DNA from: an uncultured Desulfobacterium sp.
GTDB taxonomy: Bacteria > Desulfobacterota > DSM-4660 > Desulfatiglandales > Desulfatiglandaceae
Reading direction: 5' to 3'
Assembly (NCBI GenBank): GCA_900258555.1
Contig: LT984854.1
Location: forward strand, 2,005,300-2,069,299
Length of the DNA stretch: 64,000 bases
Below, piece after piece: positions 47,800 through 58,172 of this stretch; the stretch's first letter is position 1, and each line of letters starts with the position of its first letter. Below the pieces are notes generated by a model, which was not told the DNA's origin, ran no database searches, and saw only the letters and a list, made by a program, of their open reading frames with translations. A program made the position numbers and the translations under genes.

Positions 47800-49551
47800 A
47801 TGAATAGAAAAACAATGAAAAGGGGCACTCTGTTGCTGTTAATACTGATGTTCACCATTATCCCTGGGGCCGTCTTTAATGCCGCCGCTGAAGAAGGGGC
47901 GCTCACCACAGGTCTGACAGATACCATGATTGTGTCAGGGACCATTACCAATGCACAAGGAAAACCCATTAAGGAGGTGATCCTTCACTTCACAATAAAC
48001 GGAAAGGAAGCCGAGTTGGCCGAGGAGATAAGCACCTCCAAGGCAGGCCGTTACGAGGCGGAGATCCCTGTCCAACGAGGTCTTTTACCTGGGGTAAGGG
48101 TCGAGCTGACAGGAGAGAAACCTTGCTATAAAACCGTCGAGAATATTCCACTAAGTAATATCGTCCATGAACGGACTAATGAAGATGGCGGGACTCGTTT
48201 TCTGGCCCACCACAGTTTCAGCATGTCACGCACGACCACACCGGCATTCTGGATCGCCACCCTGATACTCATAGCAGTCTACGCGCTTATAGCCTTTGAG
48301 CTGATGCACAGGACCCTTGCGGCGTTGATGGGTGCAGCCCTGATCCTGACCATCACTTACACGGCGGGAACATTTAACCCGAATTATACAATACTGACCT
48401 TTGAAGACGCTATGCACGCCATTGATATGAACGTGATATTTCTTTTAATGGCCATGATGATCATAGTGGGAGTATTAAAAAAGACCGGCGTATTTCAGTG
48501 GACAGCGTTTAAGAGCTACCAGCTGGCCAGGGGAAACGTCTTTGCCCTGGCCTCCATCCTGATGGTGGTAACAGGTGTGACATCGGCCTTTCTGGATAAT
48601 GTGACCACCATGCTCCTGATTATTCCTGTTACAATCGAGATCGCCCTGACGCTCAAGATCAACCCTGTGGCCTTTCTGCTGCCTGAAGCCTTTGCATCCA
48701 ATGTGGGAGGCACGGCAACCCTTATAGGCGACCCTCCTAATATCATGATTGGGTCATACGCCAAGCTGAGCTTTATACAATTTGTCCAGAACTTGACCAT
48801 AATCTGCATTATATGTCTGATCTTCACAGTAGTGTTCTTCTGTATTTACTACAAAAAAGAATACCTGAAGGCCCAGGTGGGAGACGTGGGAAAAATGATC
48901 GCCCACCTGAGGGAAGAGTACAAGATCACCAACGCCAAACTGCTGACTCAGGGCTGTATCCTCCTTGGTATTACCATTTTTCTTTTTATCATACACGGGG
49001 CGCTTCACATGGAGCCCAGCATTGCCGCCATGTTCGGCGCTACCATCCTGCTCGTAATCAGCAAGGTTGATATTGTCGAGATGCTTGAGCACGAAATCGA
49101 GTGGCCGACCCTGATATTTTTCATGATGCTCTTTATTGTTGTAGCAGGGGCAGAGGAGACAGGGCTTATCCAGATTATAGCAGACTGGGTAAAGGACCTT
49201 TCACAGGGCTCCCTTGTCGCTGCCATTTTGATGATCCTGTGGGTATCGGCGTTAGCTTCGGCCATCATAGACAACATCCCCTTCACTGCAACCATGCTGC
49301 CTATTGTGGCATATCTCAATACGGTTATCCCTGGGGCCGAAAACGGGATTCTGTGGTGGTCTTTGGCCCTTGGTGCCTGTCTGGGAGGAAACGGAACCAT
49401 GATCGGCGCCAGCGCCAATGTGGTCACCGTCGGCATGGCGGAGCGTGCAGGTCACCCGATTTCATTCATGTATTACCTAAAGGTGGCCTTTGTCCCCATG
49501 ATTGTCACAATAATTTTTTGCTCTGCGTGGCTTTTACTGGTTGAAATATAG
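47800..49551 (+). CDS. ArsB/NhaD-type ion transporter with exported N-terminal domain
   Basis: 583 residues. A signal peptide (about 1-30, ending NAAAE) is followed by an extracytoplasmic beta-sandwich-like module (IVSGTITNAQGKPIKEVILHF, residues ~45-140) of the carboxypeptidase-regulatory type. Ion-transporter-superfamily membrane segments follow from about 145. Two internal repeats show the signature: AFLDNVTTMLLIIPVTIEI with VGGTATLIGDPPNIMIG, and SAIIDNIPFTATMLPIV with GGNGTMIGASANVVTVG. This matches ArsB/NhaD/CitM carriers (Na+/H+ or anion). The periplasmic module is uncommon and may sense substrate. Confidence 0.85.
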   Translation: MNRKTMKRGTLLLLILMFTIIPGAVFNAAAEEGALTTGLTDTMIVSGTITNAQGKPIKEVILHFTINGKEAELAEEISTSKAGRYEAEIPVQRGLLPGVRVELTGEKPCYKTVENIPLSNIVHERTNEDGGTRFLAHHSFSMSRTTTPAFWIATLILIAVYALIAFELMHRTLAALMGAALILTITYTAGTFNPNYTILTFEDAMHAIDMNVIFLLMAMMIIVGVLKKTGVFQWTAFKSYQLARGNVFALASILMVVTGVTSAFLDNVTTMLLIIPVTIEIALTLKINPVAFLLPEAFASNVGGTATLIGDPPNIMIGSYAKLSFIQFVQNLTIICIICLIFTVVFFCIYYKKEYLKAQVGDVGKMIAHLREEYKITNAKLLTQGCILLGITIFLFIIHGALHMEPSIAAMFGATILLVISKVDIVEMLEHEIEWPTLIFFMMLFIVVAGAEETGLIQIIADWVKDLSQGSLVAAILMILWVSALASAIIDNIPFTATMLPIVAYLNTVIPGAENGILWWSLALGACLGGNGTMIGASANVVTVGMAERAGHPISFMYYLKVAFVPMIVTIIFCSAWLLLVEI

Positions 49552-49574: not shown

Positions 49575-50009
49575 ATGGCTTACAAATGTATCGTATGTGG
49601 AGTCACTGGTTCCGCCCACGCTCAGGGTGCGGCACTTGAAGCAGCAATACTGGCTAAACAAGAGAACGCGCGTTTGGTATATGTCTATGCCGCTGATATC
49701 TCATTTTTAAAAAGTGGAGTGGCGGGTCACAAGGGTGTGGAAGATTCACTGGTGCGTCTCGGAGAACACATCCTTGATATGGCCGGACAACTGGCTGCTA
49801 ACGTGGGTGTGGAAGCAAAAAAAGTGCTGAAAAAGGGGCCTGTTATTGATGTATTAAAATCGGTTGTCGCAGAGGAAAAGGCCGACCTATTGATATTAGG
49901 CCACGAAAAGCGGACGATCTTTGAAAAGGCCTTATTCCGTGGAGAAGTAGAAGACCACATAAAAGAGCTTGAGTCTCAGTCGGGTGTAACGGTAAAGATT
50001 ATCCAATGA
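49575..50009 (+). CDS. Universal stress protein (UspA family)
   Basis: 144 residues. N-terminal strand KCIVCGVTGSAHAQGAALEAA and the ADLLILGHEKRTIFEKALF segment; the usual ATP-binding GxxGxxxxxxxxxGS is altered (GHEKRTIFEKALFRGEVEDH), so nucleotide binding is uncertain. GGAGG ribosome site, 24 nt after the transporter. Usp proteins often accompany ion carriers and may modulate their activity. Confidence 0.85.
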   Translation: MAYKCIVCGVTGSAHAQGAALEAAILAKQENARLVYVYAADISFLKSGVAGHKGVEDSLVRLGEHILDMAGQLAANVGVEAKKVLKKGPVIDVLKSVVAEEKADLLILGHEKRTIFEKALFRGEVEDHIKELESQSGVTVKIIQ

Positions 50010-50040
50010 TTCTAATGAGGTAATTCATCATAAAAAGTGC

Positions 50041-50069
50041 TTGACAAATTAATAAAATTAAGATGAAAT
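50041..50069 (+). promoter_or_regulatory. Possible promoter for the tandem RNA elements
   Basis: TTGACA at 50041-50046 with a 17-bp spacer to TGAAAT (50064-50069), a weak -10. Transcription would start around 50076, just ahead of the first RNA copy. No similar pair was seen between the two copies. Confidence 0.45.
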
Positions 50070-50097
50070 ATTACTCAGCTCTTATAAAAGAACAATG

Positions 50098-50216
50098 TTT
50101 TCGGGTCTGGAGCTTATTAATATCTCCAGAGGCAGACTTTTAGGTGCATTTTTTACGCACCTGAAAAGATAGATTGTCGGGCCGCAATCTGAGCAGTCAG
50201 ATTGCGGCTTTTTTTT
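50098..50216 (+). ncRNA. Structured RNA element, copy 1, ending in a terminator
   Basis: About 119 nt: TTTTCGGG, hairpin 1 TCTGGAG/CTCCAGA, AGAGG linker, hairpin 2 with GGTGC/GCACC and CTTTT/AAAAG around a bulged G, then AGATTG, then the terminator stem GCCGCAATCTGA-GCAG-TCAGATTGCGGC (50181-50208) and eight T. AGATTG (50171-50176) can pair with CAATCT (50185-50190) in the terminator's 5' arm, which would disrupt it: the layout of an attenuator or riboswitch. Not matched to a known class. Confidence 0.65.
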
Positions 50217-50262
50217 GCCCAGAGAAATTCTGAGTTTTATTGCACAATCGAGACATTTAAAC

Positions 50263-50382
50263 TTTTCGGGTCTGGAATTTAACTATATATCCAGAGGGTA
50301 GATTTCCGGGGACGTTTCTTAAACCTCGGGAAAAATAGATTGTCGGGCCGCAATCTGAGCAGTCAGATTGCGGCTTTTTTTT
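50263..50382 (+). ncRNA. Structured RNA element, copy 2, ending in a terminator
   Basis: Same plan as copy 1. Hairpin 1 is TCTGGA/TCCAGA. Hairpin 2 has a different sequence but keeps pairing and the bulged G: TTT-CCGGGG with CCTCGG-G-AAA, where G4 forms a wobble pair. The final 46 nt, including the AGATTG/CAATCT pair (50337-50342 with 50351-50356) and the terminator (50347-50382), are identical. Covarying hairpin 2 between copies is strong evidence for selection on the fold. Confidence 0.65.
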
Positions 50383-50450
50383 GCCCAAACGTATAAGGGG
50401 GAAAACCTGCGGGCTTAAATTTTAAAACCATATTCTATGGAGGATTAGTC

Positions 50451-50612
50451 ATGGTTGAAAATCTGTTAGGCATTGTAAAAAGTAACCCGGTTGTCTTTGG
50501 AATATTCTTCGCTGTAGTTTGCATCGCAGCAGTTATCAGCATAATAAATGCCAGAAATGAAAAAAAGGCTCAAAAAAGACCATTGCCTGCAGGAGACACA
50601 AAAAAAGCCTAA
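50451..50612 (+). CDS. 53-residue single-membrane-segment peptide
   Basis: Short gene with a clear ribosome site (TGGAGGA, about 8 nt before ATG). The product starts MVENLLGIVKSNPVVFGIFF and has one hydrophobic segment (about residues 13-32, PVVFGIFFAVVCIAAVISII). A basic C-terminal tail (NARNEKKAQKRPLP) follows, expected in the cytoplasm. No family recognised. It lies directly after the second RNA terminator, so it may be the gene controlled by the tandem RNA. Distinct from the low-complexity word repeats that follow it. Confidence 0.65.
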   Translation: MVENLLGIVKSNPVVFGIFFAVVCIAAVISIINARNEKKAQKRPLPAGDTKKA

Positions 50613-50672: not shown

Positions 50673-51515
50673 TCACTCAAAATGCAGCATCTTGTATGCG
50701 GAACGAAGTGCACTGGCTGTAGGCACGGGGACGATGTTGACCCTGATATCCGTGATGCCTGGAATATTTTCGACCATTTTTCTGATCTTGTTGGTCAGCT
50801 CCTGTTCGCGGCCAGGGTCATCCTTGATGGCGATAAAGGCCACTCCGTCTCTAACCGTGACGTTGACGTCTGTAAACTGGTTGACAAGTATAGACTGGAG
50901 CTGGCTGGTTAATACGAGGTTATCCAGTATCTGTTGAGATTCAGAGGTGGTCTGAAAACACGAAAGTTTCGCTGCATTTGCCAGGATGTTAACCGCATCC
51001 TCCACCATCATTGTTTTTACGTGCAGGACGATGTCATACAGGCTGGAATCCCAGGTGTCCGCGCCATAGAGATGCAAGCCCCATTTGCGGCGCTCATCGT
51101 CATCCTTTTTTATGATGTAACGTGCATCTTCTTCGGAAATATTCTCCCGTCTCATTTCCTCCTTTACCCTGTCTTCAGGGTCGGCGATAATCCTGACCTT
51201 GAGTACATGAGGTACCTGCTGAAGAAAAAAATGACCGGCCAACCCGTGATAGACGACATTATCGTTTTTGACATGTTGCAACAGGATATCCCGGATAAAG
51301 GCAACGTAAGTCTCTTTTCCTCGGGTGAATCGGTCAAGTATTGAGGGCGCATCATGGATTGCCCTGGCAAGTTTTATCTCAGGGATATGAAACTTATCGG
51401 AGGCCTCCAGCAGAATCTCCCGCGAAATGCATCTGTAGCCCAATTTCTTGGCCAATTTTTCTGCTACTTCCTTGCCCCGGCTGTAACTACCCCTGGATAT
51501 GGTTATAATAGACAT
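50673..51515 (-). CDS. Cytidylate-kinase-like protein with BON-like C-terminus
   Basis: 280 residues. The N-terminal 200 match the cytidylate kinase-like (AAA_26/Cmk2) group: ISRGSYSRGKEVAEKLAKKLG, where the P-loop is GSYSRGKE, then YRCISREILLEASDKF and RIIADPEDRVKEEMRRENIS. The last 75 residues resemble a BON-type domain (VNVTVRDGVAFIAIKDDPG, GITDIRVNIVP). True CMP kinase activity is doubtful; the family is frequent beside SulP carriers in Desulfobacterota. It is last in the minus arm. Confidence 0.78.
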   Translation of the reverse strand: MSIITISRGSYSRGKEVAEKLAKKLGYRCISREILLEASDKFHIPEIKLARAIHDAPSILDRFTRGKETYVAFIRDILLQHVKNDNVVYHGLAGHFFLQQVPHVLKVRIIADPEDRVKEEMRRENISEEDARYIIKKDDDERRKWGLHLYGADTWDSSLYDIVLHVKTMMVEDAVNILANAAKLSCFQTTSESQQILDNLVLTSQLQSILVNQFTDVNVTVRDGVAFIAIKDDPGREQELTNKIRKMVENIPGITDIRVNIVPVPTASALRSAYKMLHFE

Positions 51516-54796: not shown

Positions 54797-56020
54797 TTAT
54801 CTACCTGCCTTCCTCTCCTTGATCTTTTCGTTGGCCTTTTTGATCGTATCACTCAAAAGTCCTATATCTACAGGCTTTTGAAGATAGGCAAAGGCGCCCA
54901 GTTTCATACAGACCTCTTTATCAGCATCGGAACCATGCCCGGTGAGGATAATGACCTCAATCTCAGGTTGGGTCTCTTTAACCCTTCTTAAGACCTCTAT
55001 GCCGTCAATGCCGGGCATCTTGAGATCAAGTATCATAACATCAGGCTCATCTTCCTTTACCAGGTCAAGGGCTGACTGTCCGTCATATGCGACAGCCGAA
55101 CCCATGTCTCTCATCAACAGACGCTCTGAAAGGGTCTGGACAAATTCTCTTTCATCATCAACAAGCAGTATCTTTGACGGCATCTCGAAATCATACCTCC
55201 TGTAAATATCTGTCTGGTGGAAATCAGGCCCTACCTTTGTTTCAACGGATTTTACCCCGGCTATCTTTTGGGCAATGGACTTGAGTTCTTCCTCAAGCCT
55301 GCCCAGCATTAGGACATGCTTGTTGATAGTGATGGTAACCTTTCCGTCTTTGGCGCTTACCCCCACATTATGACCCTCCAGCACAAGAGCCACCTCTACA
55401 CTGGATGCGAGAAGGAAGTCCTCCACTGCCTTTTTGGAATCCTCGGTCGGCCTTACCGCATCCTTAACCAGGTTTTCCTTAATGATGTTCCCTGCTTCTT
55501 TCGCAGTCACTTTGTCGGAAGGTATTATAATGTCATATATTGACGGATCCCACGGATCATTCTTATTATAAATAGAATTCACCCACGATGCGCAGTCTTC
55601 ATCCTGTCTTCGTATCAGTTTTATAGCCTCACTTTCAGACAGGCCCTCTTCATGAACAGCAGCGGAGATCCTGGACTTCATGTCTGCAATTATACAAACT
55701 CGAAGCGCATGACTGACATCTTTTGGTATCAATTGACTTGAAAAACCTGAAATCACAATTTGATCGCCTGAAAGAACCTGCGCCAATGCGAGCTTGAGGT
55801 GGGAGATAGAGCGTTCTCTTTCATGTGTAAATTTATTGAAAACCGAGGTCCTGGCGGTAAACGCCCGCTCTATTTTGGTCTCGGCGATGCGGGAAAGCCT
55901 GCTCGCCTCTGAGACGATCTCCTTATCAGTTAAGAGCTTGTATCCCGTACCATCCAATACGTTTTTGACAATAGGACCTTTCTGACAAAAGGAACCACTG
56001 AATACAGTTATAATAGACAT
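54797..56020 (-). CDS. Cytidylate-kinase-like / receiver fusion protein
   Basis: 407 residues from ATG 56020 (GGGGG-type ribosome site; the longer frame from 56119 runs into the SulP end). Residues 1-200 are cytidylate kinase-like, with a degenerate P-loop (VFSGSFCQKGPIVKNVL). Residues ~205-275 are BON-like (VGVSAKDGKVTITINKHV, GVKSVETKVG). Residues ~285-405 are a receiver with LLVDDEREFVQ, MILDLKMPGIDG and LTGHGSDADKE. It fuses into one chain what the last two minus-arm genes encode separately, linking the kinase-like domain with phosphorelay signalling. Confidence 0.82.
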   Translation of the reverse strand: MSIITVFSGSFCQKGPIVKNVLDGTGYKLLTDKEIVSEASRLSRIAETKIERAFTARTSVFNKFTHERERSISHLKLALAQVLSGDQIVISGFSSQLIPKDVSHALRVCIIADMKSRISAAVHEEGLSESEAIKLIRRQDEDCASWVNSIYNKNDPWDPSIYDIIIPSDKVTAKEAGNIIKENLVKDAVRPTEDSKKAVEDFLLASSVEVALVLEGHNVGVSAKDGKVTITINKHVLMLGRLEEELKSIAQKIAGVKSVETKVGPDFHQTDIYRRYDFEMPSKILLVDDEREFVQTLSERLLMRDMGSAVAYDGQSALDLVKEDEPDVMILDLKMPGIDGIEVLRRVKETQPEIEVIILTGHGSDADKEVCMKLGAFAYLQKPVDIGLLSDTIKKANEKIKERKAGR

Positions 56021-56045
56021 ATTAGCCCCCTTATTCCATACGCTT

Positions 56046-58172
56046 TCAGGCTGCGTGACCGACAGTGAGCAGCGGACAATATTCTTCGACCACATCCCTG
56101 TGGGTCTTTGAATGTACATCTCTTATTGCCTTTTCCATGGTCGCATATACATGATCCTCACCGATCTTTTCAGGAAAATGCATACGCTTGAGTACCTTCA
56201 TCACTGATTCGTTTACGCCGCTTAAAGATAGATCAATGCCGGCGCTTCTGATACGATCCACAAGCAAGGACAATGTCTCCTCACCTGATGCGTCAATATC
56301 GTTGATACCATTGCATACGATGATTATATGCCTCAAGTTCTCTTTTTTAAGCATCAACTCCGTTATCTTATCTTCAAGATAACTGGAGTTTGCAAAGAAG
56401 AGCGGACCGTCAAAACGGACCATGGAGATATATTTGCATTCACTTAATTCGTGTGTAGATATACACCTAAATGCCTGGTCTTCATGCCTGGCCAGGGATG
56501 CGACAGTCGGTCTCATGCTCTTGTATAAAAATACCGAAATGGAAAGTATGACTCCGATCATTATGCCCTTGTCCAAATGAGGGGCAAACAGGAGCGTGAA
56601 AAAACAGGTGATGATAGAGATCGCACCGTCATACCATTGGGCCTTCCAGGCATGAATAAAACCCGATACGTTTATCAACCCGACCACCGCCATCATGATA
56701 ACCGCAGCCAGCACGGATTGGGGCAGATGGTAGAGTAGAGGTGTAAAGAAAAGAAGCACTATGACCACCGTCAGGCTGGTGAATACGCTGGACATCCCCG
56801 TAACCGCCCCTGCCTGAAGGTTGACTGCTGATCTGGAAAACGAGCCCGAAGTGGGGTAACTCTGTCCAAAGGCGCCGAGCGCGTTTGCTACACCCTGGCC
56901 GATCAGCTCCTGGTTGGGGTCAAGACGCTGACCAGTCTTGGCAGCCATGGCCTTTGCTATTGAGATGGCCTCCATAAACCCCAGCAAAGATATGATTGCT
57001 GCAAAGGGCAGCAGATGCATTATAACACTAACCTTGATCTCCGGAACATTGAAAGAAGGGAGTCCGCCGGGGATTTCACCCACAACAGAGCCACCGCCAT
57101 TCATTGCAATCTTGTCCGTCTTGATCGGATTATTGCCCACCTTCACGCACCAGGTCCTTCCGTCACTTTTCACATCTGCAGGTATTTGGTCCTTGAGATA
57201 GAATTCGAGAGAGCCGCTCGACCCGGCGACACCCGCAAACAGGAGTGCCCTGATCTGTTCGCGATAACGATGTGCCTCATCCTTTGCGCGCTCGAGCTTA
57301 ATGGAAATCACATTTTCATCGTGCTCGGCCTCAAGTATCGAAAGATTATCATGAGATTCTTTGGCCTTTTCAAGTCTTGCGGATACCTTGGTCCTTTCTT
57401 CTGCAAGCCCCGGTATGGTATTGACCGCAATGTTAAAAGACATTATCAGTTCCTGTGCCTTGGCCGATTTAAGGGCGGATATGTTGACGTCCGCGTTATG
57501 CTGAAAACCTATAGCCCAGGAGATGACCGTAGTAAGGACAACTGCTACAAGCACATTGGGGAGTTTGGGCGCGAGCCTTTTTAAACCGTACATAATCCCG
57601 AATGCAAGCACACCCATAAAAAACGTCGGCCAGTGGGTATAGGTGGTTGCTGCCTTAATCACACGGATGATTGTCTCGTAGTGGTGCGGGGCCTCATCCA
57701 CCGATACGCCGAATATCTTTGAAAGCTGCGAGGTGGCAATGATGAAGGCCGCGGCATTGGTAAAACCGTTAACCACAGGGTGGGATAAAAAATTGACCAC
57801 AAGACCCAGTCTCAAAAGGCCCAGGCAGAATTGAAAGATTCCCACAAGCAGGGCCAGAAGAATAGCATAGACGACGAAACTTTCGCTGCCTGCCGTGGCA
57901 AGGGGGCTCAGCGACGCGGAGGTCATAAGAGAGACAACGGCCACAGGCCCTGTGGCGAGTTGCCGGCTGGAGCCGAATAGGGATGCAACCATGGGAGGAA
58001 GAAATGCCGCATATAATCCGTAGTATGGAGGCAGGCCCGCCAGTTGGGCGTAGGCCATTGACTGGGGGATAAGGACCAGGGCCACTGTAAGCCCTGCAAG
58101 AAAATCAATCCTGAATTTACCGACACTGTAATCCTTGAACCAGTCAAGGAATGGCAAGATCCTGTTCAACAT
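56046..58172 (-). CDS. SulP-family anion transporter with STAS domain and large insertion
   Basis: 708 residues. N-terminal SulP core with the signature DFLAGLTVALVLIPQSMAYAQLAGLPPYYGLYA, membrane helices from about 20-220 and 380-550, and a C-terminal STAS domain (about 565-690). Between about residues 225 and 360 lies an extra-membrane insertion with a charged helical stretch (AEERTKVSARLEKAKESHDN through DEAHRYREQI), probably a coiled coil on the outer face. Typical SulP proteins have no such insert. Substrate (sulfate, bicarbonate or other anion) unknown. Confidence 0.85.
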   Translation of the reverse strand: MLNRILPFLDWFKDYSVGKFRIDFLAGLTVALVLIPQSMAYAQLAGLPPYYGLYAAFLPPMVASLFGSSRQLATGPVAVVSLMTSASLSPLATAGSESFVVYAILLALLVGIFQFCLGLLRLGLVVNFLSHPVVNGFTNAAAFIIATSQLSKIFGVSVDEAPHHYETIIRVIKAATTYTHWPTFFMGVLAFGIMYGLKRLAPKLPNVLVAVVLTTVISWAIGFQHNADVNISALKSAKAQELIMSFNIAVNTIPGLAEERTKVSARLEKAKESHDNLSILEAEHDENVISIKLERAKDEAHRYREQIRALLFAGVAGSSGSLEFYLKDQIPADVKSDGRTWCVKVGNNPIKTDKIAMNGGGSVVGEIPGGLPSFNVPEIKVSVIMHLLPFAAIISLLGFMEAISIAKAMAAKTGQRLDPNQELIGQGVANALGAFGQSYPTSGSFSRSAVNLQAGAVTGMSSVFTSLTVVIVLLFFTPLLYHLPQSVLAAVIMMAVVGLINVSGFIHAWKAQWYDGAISIITCFFTLLFAPHLDKGIMIGVILSISVFLYKSMRPTVASLARHEDQAFRCISTHELSECKYISMVRFDGPLFFANSSYLEDKITELMLKKENLRHIIIVCNGINDIDASGEETLSLLVDRIRSAGIDLSLSGVNESVMKVLKRMHFPEKIGEDHVYATMEKAIRDVHSKTHRDVVEEYCPLLTVGHAA

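Follow-up and report, generated by a model that had tools for sequence, protein, structure and literature searches.

Few RNAs sense Na+ or Li+ directly, and how near-identical folds discriminate between the two ions is an open question. The described classes closest to the locus considered here are the Li+-I riboswitches (nhaA-I, RF03057), which target NhaA, and the Na+-I RNAs (DUF1646; RF03071). A terminator-bearing nhaA-I variant, termed Na+-II, has been described in Desulfobulbus propionicus, where Na+ raises the full-length transcript (White et al. 2022, PMC9646797). In the accessible portions of that paper, U is given at position 54 in most nhaA-I RNAs and C in the D. propionicus Na+ sensor, a C54U change in the latter broadened the response to Li+, Na+ and NH4+, the terminator platform is reported only for Deltaproteobacterial variants, and trehalose-6-phosphate synthase is mentioned. 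Li+-I riboswitches also occur as tandem, 'pseudo-cooperative' elements, for which six doublets and one triplet are listed in the available text of PMC9481103.

The window analysed here is a 64,000 nt stretch of contig LT984854.1 from an uncultured Desulfobacterium sp. It contains two direct-repeat units of about 115 nt, with starts 165-166 nt apart and 82-83% identity. They are probably tandem nhaA-I-type alkali-cation riboswitches, each consisting of an aptamer and an intrinsic terminator, placed before the gene for a small single-helix membrane protein, and with Na+ as the likeliest ligand. The features of the region are as follows.

47800-49551, + strand: NhaD/ArsB-type (CitMHS) transporter, upstream neighbour given for context (Pfam CitMHS, 1.2e-80)
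49575-50009, + strand: universal stress protein (USP), upstream neighbour given for context (Pfam Usp, 2.7e-13)
50041-50046, + strand: candidate -35 element TTGACA, with candidate -10 element TGAAAT at 50064-50069 (spacer 17)
50103-50216, + strand: copy 1, whole unit of aptamer and terminator
50103-50190, + strand: copy 1, nhaA-I-type aptamer with GGGU, P1, AGG, extra hairpin and P2 with the UCGGGCCG loop (RF03057 match)
50107-50112 / 50124-50129, + strand: P1 of copy 1
50138-50166, + strand: extra hairpin of copy 1 (UUUUAGGUGC / GCACCUGAAA), inserted between P1 and P2 in this lineage only (folding, RNAalifold)
50171-50190, + strand: P2 of copy 1, the antiterminator, with AGAUUG at 50171-50176, the UCGGGCCG loop, and CAAUCU at 50185-50190 (pairing, folds)
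50181-50216, + strand: terminator 1, a 12-bp stem with GCAG loop and T8 (perfect inverted repeat 50181-50208, T8 50209-50216)
50268-50382, + strand: copy 2, whole unit of aptamer and terminator
50268-50356, + strand: copy 2, nhaA-I-type aptamer (RF03057 match)
50272-50276 / 50290-50294, + strand: P1 of copy 2
50303-50332, + strand: extra hairpin of copy 2 (UUUCCGGGG / CCUCGGGAA) (folding, RNAalifold)
50337-50342 / 50351-50356, + strand: P2 of copy 2
50347-50382, + strand: terminator 2, same sequence as terminator 1 (inverted repeat 50347-50374, T8 50375-50382)
50451-50612, + strand: target gene for a 53-residue protein, with a GGAGG ribosome site just upstream (reading frame, orthologue in G064)

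The GGGU and AGG, P2 with its loop, and the terminator show no difference between the two copies; P1, the extra hairpin and the predicted ground-state fold differ. The pattern of loop plus terminator occurs twice in the window and in none of 100 shuffles, ruling out chance repeats. A first-pass annotation of this DNA had described structured tandem elements with covarying hairpins that end in the same 12-bp GCAG-loop terminator and T8, and both descriptions stand, the former by folding against shuffles and by two-sided pair changes, the latter at 50181-50216 and 50347-50382. Its statement that the copies share a fold holds for the conserved elements but not for every predicted minimum, as copy 2 on its own folds otherwise: without the terminator, its minimum is another structure (-23.7 kcal/mol). 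In the minimum-energy folds, the G that it described as bulged in hairpin 2 pairs as a G-U wobble.

The same annotation could match the conserved words to no known class. They are, however, those of the nhaA-I core (5' GGGU, P1, AGG, and P2 with the conserved UCGGGCCG loop), which is present in both copies. In a sensitive Rfam scan, RF03057 gave 23.0 bits (E 0.025) for copy 1 and 20.6 bits (E 0.096) for copy 2, and both copies align over model positions 1-55, the full model length. Neither reaches the curated gathering cut-off of 37 bits, which is a detection threshold, and for this reason the pair is filed as an nhaA-I variant and not as a plain member. Under stricter filters, an RF03057 search of the window's own class missed even the window copies. 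Spot 42, Aar and other weak Rfam matches were rejected, being far below gathering.

A covariance model (R1) was built from three sequences of the genus, namely both window copies and a single copy from a sister species (G064); it scores 103.4 and 106.5 bits on copies 1 and 2, from which it was built. Across 395 genomes of the phylum, R1 recovered a third copy in the window's own genome (G000, C2:983333-983421, 56.2 bits) and further RNAs in G328, G213 (three in a row), G379 and G403. RF03057 gives 40.1-53.6 bits to the RNAs of these last four genomes and to one carried by L079, a contig named Thermodesulfobacteriota, so that R1, by recovering RNAs above the RF03057 cut-off, establishes continuity with accepted nhaA-I members. 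Of the 39 matches of R1, those taken as real were the three of G000, the three of G213, and those of G328, G379 and G403; the other 30 were chance-like where the sequence was read, a few short loci being scanned only for the loop. Within the own class (85 genomes), R1 found the element in G000 (three copies) and G064 (two), five copies that make up a genus regulon new here, and its weaker matches in five more genomes (26.2 bits or less) look like chance. Searched directly, RF03057 exceeds its cut-off in 37 of the 395 phylum genomes. Since the relatives found with R1 pass the Rfam cut-off and 37 genomes exceed it, the window RNAs are, judged by sequence, a diverged branch of nhaA-I. The first-pass annotation had set conservation in Desulfobacterota for its idea, and relatives were indeed found (G064, G328, G213, G379, G403), and a strong hit to a known Rfam family against it. 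That hit came indirectly, as the window copies themselves lie below gathering and the relatives found by the genus model above it. The anions, nucleotides and c-di-nucleotides it put forward as ligands gained no support.

The genus RNAs differ most clearly from other members in the linker that joins P1 to P2, a stretch of 38-39 nt with a hairpin in the four tabulated genus RNAs, against 3-15 nt in the other 61. The hairpin of copy 1 has a folding energy of -12.8 kcal/mol, compared to a mean of -3.3 for shuffled sequences, none of 500 of which folded as well, and that of copy 2 has -11.0 compared to -7.8 (P = 0.09, alone not significant). It folds in all five genus RNAs (the window pair, the third copy of G000 and two in G064), and in all except window copy 2 (P = 0.09) it does so better than shuffles (P < 0.03). 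RNAalifold on the five sequences kept 12 pairs, seven of which have changed on both sides in at least one sequence. Relatives without the hairpin score 40.1-53.6 bits, so this insert of about 30 nt, confined to the genus, probably costs the window copies their RF03057 score.

The AGATTG words that the first-pass annotation called pre-terminator (50171-50176, 50337-50342) and paired with CAATCT in the terminator 5' arm (50185-50190, 50351-50356) form aptamer stem P2, the 3' arm of which doubles as part of the terminator 5' arm. That pairing is found in both copies and the two folds are exclusive, so the proposed choice between antiterminator and terminator agrees with both the shared CAAUCU and the fold energies. 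The terminator is favoured over the P2-forced fold by 14.7 kcal/mol (copy 1) and 12.9 kcal/mol (copy 2), and the minimum-energy fold of copy 1 before the terminator 3' arm exists is P1, hairpin and P2. An AGAUUG inside the terminator repeats the P2 5' arm, and because the two compete for the same CAAUCU, a ligand that locks P1 and P2 would be expected to give read-through. When no ligand is bound, the terminator 3' arm (AGAUUGCGGC) would take the shared strand from the P2 5' arm (AGAUUG), ending transcription; a bound cation would hold P1 and P2 together and RNA polymerase would read through, making an ON switch. The output would form part of a Na+/salt response, with the small protein probably made only when cell sodium is high. 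Transcription may start from the local candidate promoter. Its TTGACA is also kept upstream of the RNA in G064 and precedes the second locus of the regulon in both genomes (G000, G064); the element at 50041-50046 is absent from the hits of a promoter consensus scan.

Two complete aptamer-plus-terminator units precede one ORF, and as both would have to be passed in series, read-through would multiply. A response model with an assumed leak of 10% and maximum of 90% predicts that on going from one unit to two the range grows from 8.9-fold to 80-fold, and the effective Hill slope from 1.00 to 1.13. The stacking of units had been read earlier as a logic for a steep ligand response; the stacking stands, but in the model steepness is minor, and the chief gain of the tandem would be lower leak and wider range unless the units interact.

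The target gene lies on the same strand, 68 nt past the second T-run, a layout common to the two species, and the gene that follows it is convergent. The 53-residue protein has one hydrophobic stretch (residues ~11-34, no charges) and a basic tail. Its G064 orthologue is 79% identical, and as dN is 0.12 and dS 0.79, with 26 of 53 codons differing and 14 of these synonymous, the ORF probably encodes a real protein under purifying selection. No family in Pfam or NCBIfam matched above cut-off. The 395 genomes were searched with an alignment of the window protein, its G064 orthologue and a 50-residue protein of G386. Convincing matches were confined to G000 and G386, which had both contributed to the query, and the other 15 matching genomes had E values of 0.0065 or weaker; a widespread family was accordingly rejected. 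The window protein and that of G386 share 34% identity and a K-x-N-P before the helix, which is suggestive of kinship. In both the window and G064, the small gene comes directly after the genes for the NhaD-type transporter and the USP, and its product may be an accessory of that transporter. The best NCBIfam match of the transporter is MamN (187.8 bits, below the MamN cut-off of 500). Farther on, among many two-component genes of the window, are proteins with cytidylate-kinase-like domains (50673-51515 and 54797-56119, - strand); PF13189 was found in the former, and the latter is alike by eye and has a response-regulator-like C-terminus.

Of the 67 matches of RF03057 in the phylum, four weak ones (25.3 bits or less; G349, G406, G336 and G167:C33:22350) were left out, and those of G265 and G428 were dropped as probable chance hits in coding sequence. 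The resulting RNA table has 65 rows, or 52 distinct RNAs after three poorly fitting rows were dropped before the pairing statistics. Among these 52, standard pairs fill 98.4% of P1 cells (81.4% shuffled) and 91.7% of P2 cells (82.9% shuffled), the shuffle being indicative only in both cases as relatives are not independent; two-sided changes occur in all six P1 columns and four of the six P2 columns, and sliding the partners by one drops the pairing of both stems below 63%. Of 62 copies, 52 have a terminator stem that uses the P2 3' arm and reaches at least 12 pairs, as do 10 of 1240 shuffled controls; this threshold replaced one of at least seven pairs, which 484 of the 1240 controls reached. 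A loose DNA-pattern scan of contigs gave 119 stretches with one true element recognised (L079), and a scan of viral sequences gave no element. By comparison with the 37 of 395 phylum genomes, those over the cut-off numbered three of 185 in the class of a Pseudomonas and three of 289 in the class of a Bosea, centre included, both draws being centred on genomes chosen because they matched. In these draws, the supposedly rare variant form thus occurs in a larger share of genomes than the other.

The 62 copies (leaving out the window pair and the first G064 copy) fall into 54 loci in 40 genomes, seven of which are arrays (six doubles, one triple), and the window is an eighth. Aptamer identity within arrays spans 60-100%, so some probably arose by recent duplication and at least one, that of G117, is probably old. 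At the site where the window has two copies, G064 has one, with an identical terminator. The second locus of the regulon has the same switch with extra hairpin and TTGACA (L285:5334-5450 at C2:983333 of the own genome, L385:1501-1610 in G064) and in both species the gene after it is OpgC/acyltransferase-like; GpgS-like and MpgP-like genes come before the locus in G000. In G213 (L286:7814-8164, - strand), three near-identical nhaA-I units, each with a terminator, precede a gene for a 159-residue protein with an N-terminal membrane segment. Similar-looking proteins are present in G185 and G117 (both doubles), and the one of this type that was scanned had no Pfam match. G152 (L317, C12:49433-50008, - strand) is alone among the phylum genomes in having G-C basal P1 pairs; its two copies, one of which lacks a terminator, lie about 0.5 kb from each other and precede a gene for an OmpA-type protein. 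The first unit of the double array L336 (G243 C26:17435) has GTGT in place of GGGT and a broken P1 pair, and looks decayed.

Next genes were called heuristically, some probably wrongly, and the 53 scanned in the phylum include two CPA2-type exchangers, two Na/Ca exchangers and one CitMHS/NhaD-type transporter resembling that of the window; NhaA, the Li+-I target, was found in none of the 53. Nine of ten next genes of Pseudomonadota nhaA-I RNAs were scanned, the frame of the tenth having been called wrongly, and gave seven NhaA, one CitMHS/NhaD-type and one Mrp/NADH-dehydrogenase-type protein. Neighbours in the phylum also include solute genes resembling GpgS (glucosyl-3-phosphoglycerate synthase; 361-375 bits, below the model cut-off of 700), MpgP (mannosyl-3-phosphoglycerate phosphatase) and TreZ. 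In G292, the gene for a 54-residue single-helix protein heads an apparent operon with GpgS- and MpgP-like genes, recognised by their likeness to scanned ones, and in G386 that for the 50-residue single-helix protein precedes a CitMHS-type transporter gene. These neighbours fit salt physiology. The commonest next gene (8 of 53, mainly family f58) encodes pentapeptide-repeat proteins with signal-like N-termini, an unexplained partner (L322, L323, L328, L329, L332, L333, L337 and L366), and Peripla_BP_6-type periplasmic binding proteins follow seven of the 53 switches, mostly of the C54 form (L324, L327, L340, L343, L344, L351 and L352).

Na+ is the likely ligand of the window pair, because an intrinsic terminator exclusive with P2 and a Deltaproteobacterial (Desulfobacterota) host reproduce the Na+-II setting, no next gene is nhaA and the neighbours are of salt type. 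As to the host, the phylum draw around the window includes G292, which has its matches on the same contigs and at the same positions as G499, the genome of the named Thermodesulfobacteriota isolate Yes70-18. Weighing against this are the sub-gathering scores, the many next genes without an evident sodium link and the base at position 54, which was assigned by inference to the P2-loop site that has C for U in 10 of the 65 tabulated RNAs. With a GUCGGGC loop, both copies have U there, not the C of the D. propionicus switch. This U and the identical P2 loop are what the pair shares with Li+-I RNAs, but sensing of Li+ in the classical manner appears improbable. The terminator platform is reported only for Deltaproteobacterial variants in the part of PMC9646797 that was available, NhaA follows none of the 53 phylum switches, the next gene here encoding a protein without family match, and the basal P1 pair is C-G in both copies, not the G-C of Li+-I. 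That pair is pyrimidine-purine (Y-R: C-G, U-G or U-A) in 51 of 52 distinct Desulfobacterota RNAs and G-C (GGGUG...CAGG) in all 10 over-cut-off Pseudomonadota nhaA-I RNAs seen (Fisher P 1e-10, computed on hand-entered counts and ignoring relatedness); it separates the lineages and may set ion preference. A broad alkali/ammonium sensor responding to Na+, Li+ and NH4+, like the published C54U mutant, would account for U54 in a Y-R P1 background, which other Desulfobacterota RNAs also have. Such breadth is possible but on the unlikely side, as the mutant is one change in another RNA, for which natural U54 members may compensate.

Two further readings concern the pair as a unit. As P1, the extra hairpin and the predicted ground-state fold differ between the copies, these might differ in ligand or affinity and act as a two-input or graded gate instead of a simple double gate, an idea we doubt given their identical GGGU, AGG, P2 with loop, and terminator; tandems of the class are also assumed to be homotypic in the available text of PMC9481103. 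It is very improbable that no ligand is involved and that the copies are just a pair of strong terminators behind the USP gene, or of short terminated sRNAs, with a chance likeness to nhaA-I. The strongly favoured terminator fold and the scores below the Rfam cut-off would suit such an origin, but not the conserved unpaired nucleotides, the covarying P1 and extra hairpin, the conserved upstream TTGACA, or the same-strand gene 68 nt past the second T-run in two species.

Returning to Na+ sensing, we tentatively propose, as possible rather than probable, that the Desulfobacterota nhaA-I RNAs are a distinct specificity group in which the Y-R basal P1 pair, and not C54 alone, sets preference. Most of them, those with U54 like the window tandem, would then be natural Na+ or multi-cation sensors governing a salt regulon of antiporters, compatible-solute genes and single-helix proteins; the small protein here would be induced by Na+ and serve the neighbouring NhaD-type transporter as an accessory, and the genus-specific third hairpin would tune folding speed or affinity. 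The RNA set offers natural contrasts (U54 versus C54; G-C versus Y-R basal P1) with which specificity can be tested. It also ties a variant that was called rare, and described next to genes without a known function, to Na+ transporters and compatible-solute genes, and it points to small membrane proteins as likely members of the salt response.

As far as the accessible portions of PMC9646797 and PMC9481103 extend, the class, its terminator-bearing Na+ variant (2022), and tandem and triple arrangements are already known. The covarying extra hairpin, the genus regulon, the 53-residue target beside an NhaD-type transporter and the basal P1 contrast are new here. A search of the open literature, the supplement of PMC9646797 lying outside it, found neither this locus nor the extra hairpin, the basal-pair contrast or the GpgS/MpgP association. 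With Na+-I, the window RNAs share the two-stem plan and the exclusivity of P2 and terminator, as given in the available part of PMC9337991, but that identity was rejected, as RF03071 had no match at E up to 10 in 49900-50600; it had none either in 15 genomes picked by DNA pattern. The 5' GGGU, the AGG after P1 and the UCGGGCCG P2 loop are those of Li+-I, from which the pair differs by a basal P1 C-G instead of G-C, the terminator, the lack of nhaA and the sub-gathering score. Closer is Na+-II of D. propionicus as portrayed in the accessible text of PMC9646797, with the nhaA-I core, a terminator sharing P2, a host in Desulfobacterota, a next gene of unknown function and an expected ON response; the window differs from it by U at the assigned position 54, the hairpin of about 30 nt between P1 and P2, and the tandem. 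As in the pseudo-cooperative riboswitches, so far as these are covered in the available text of PMC9481103, complete aptamer-plus-terminator units stand in series before one ORF, and unlike those published tandems, the copies here are about 82% identical, each has the extra hairpin, and the target is a tiny single-helix protein.
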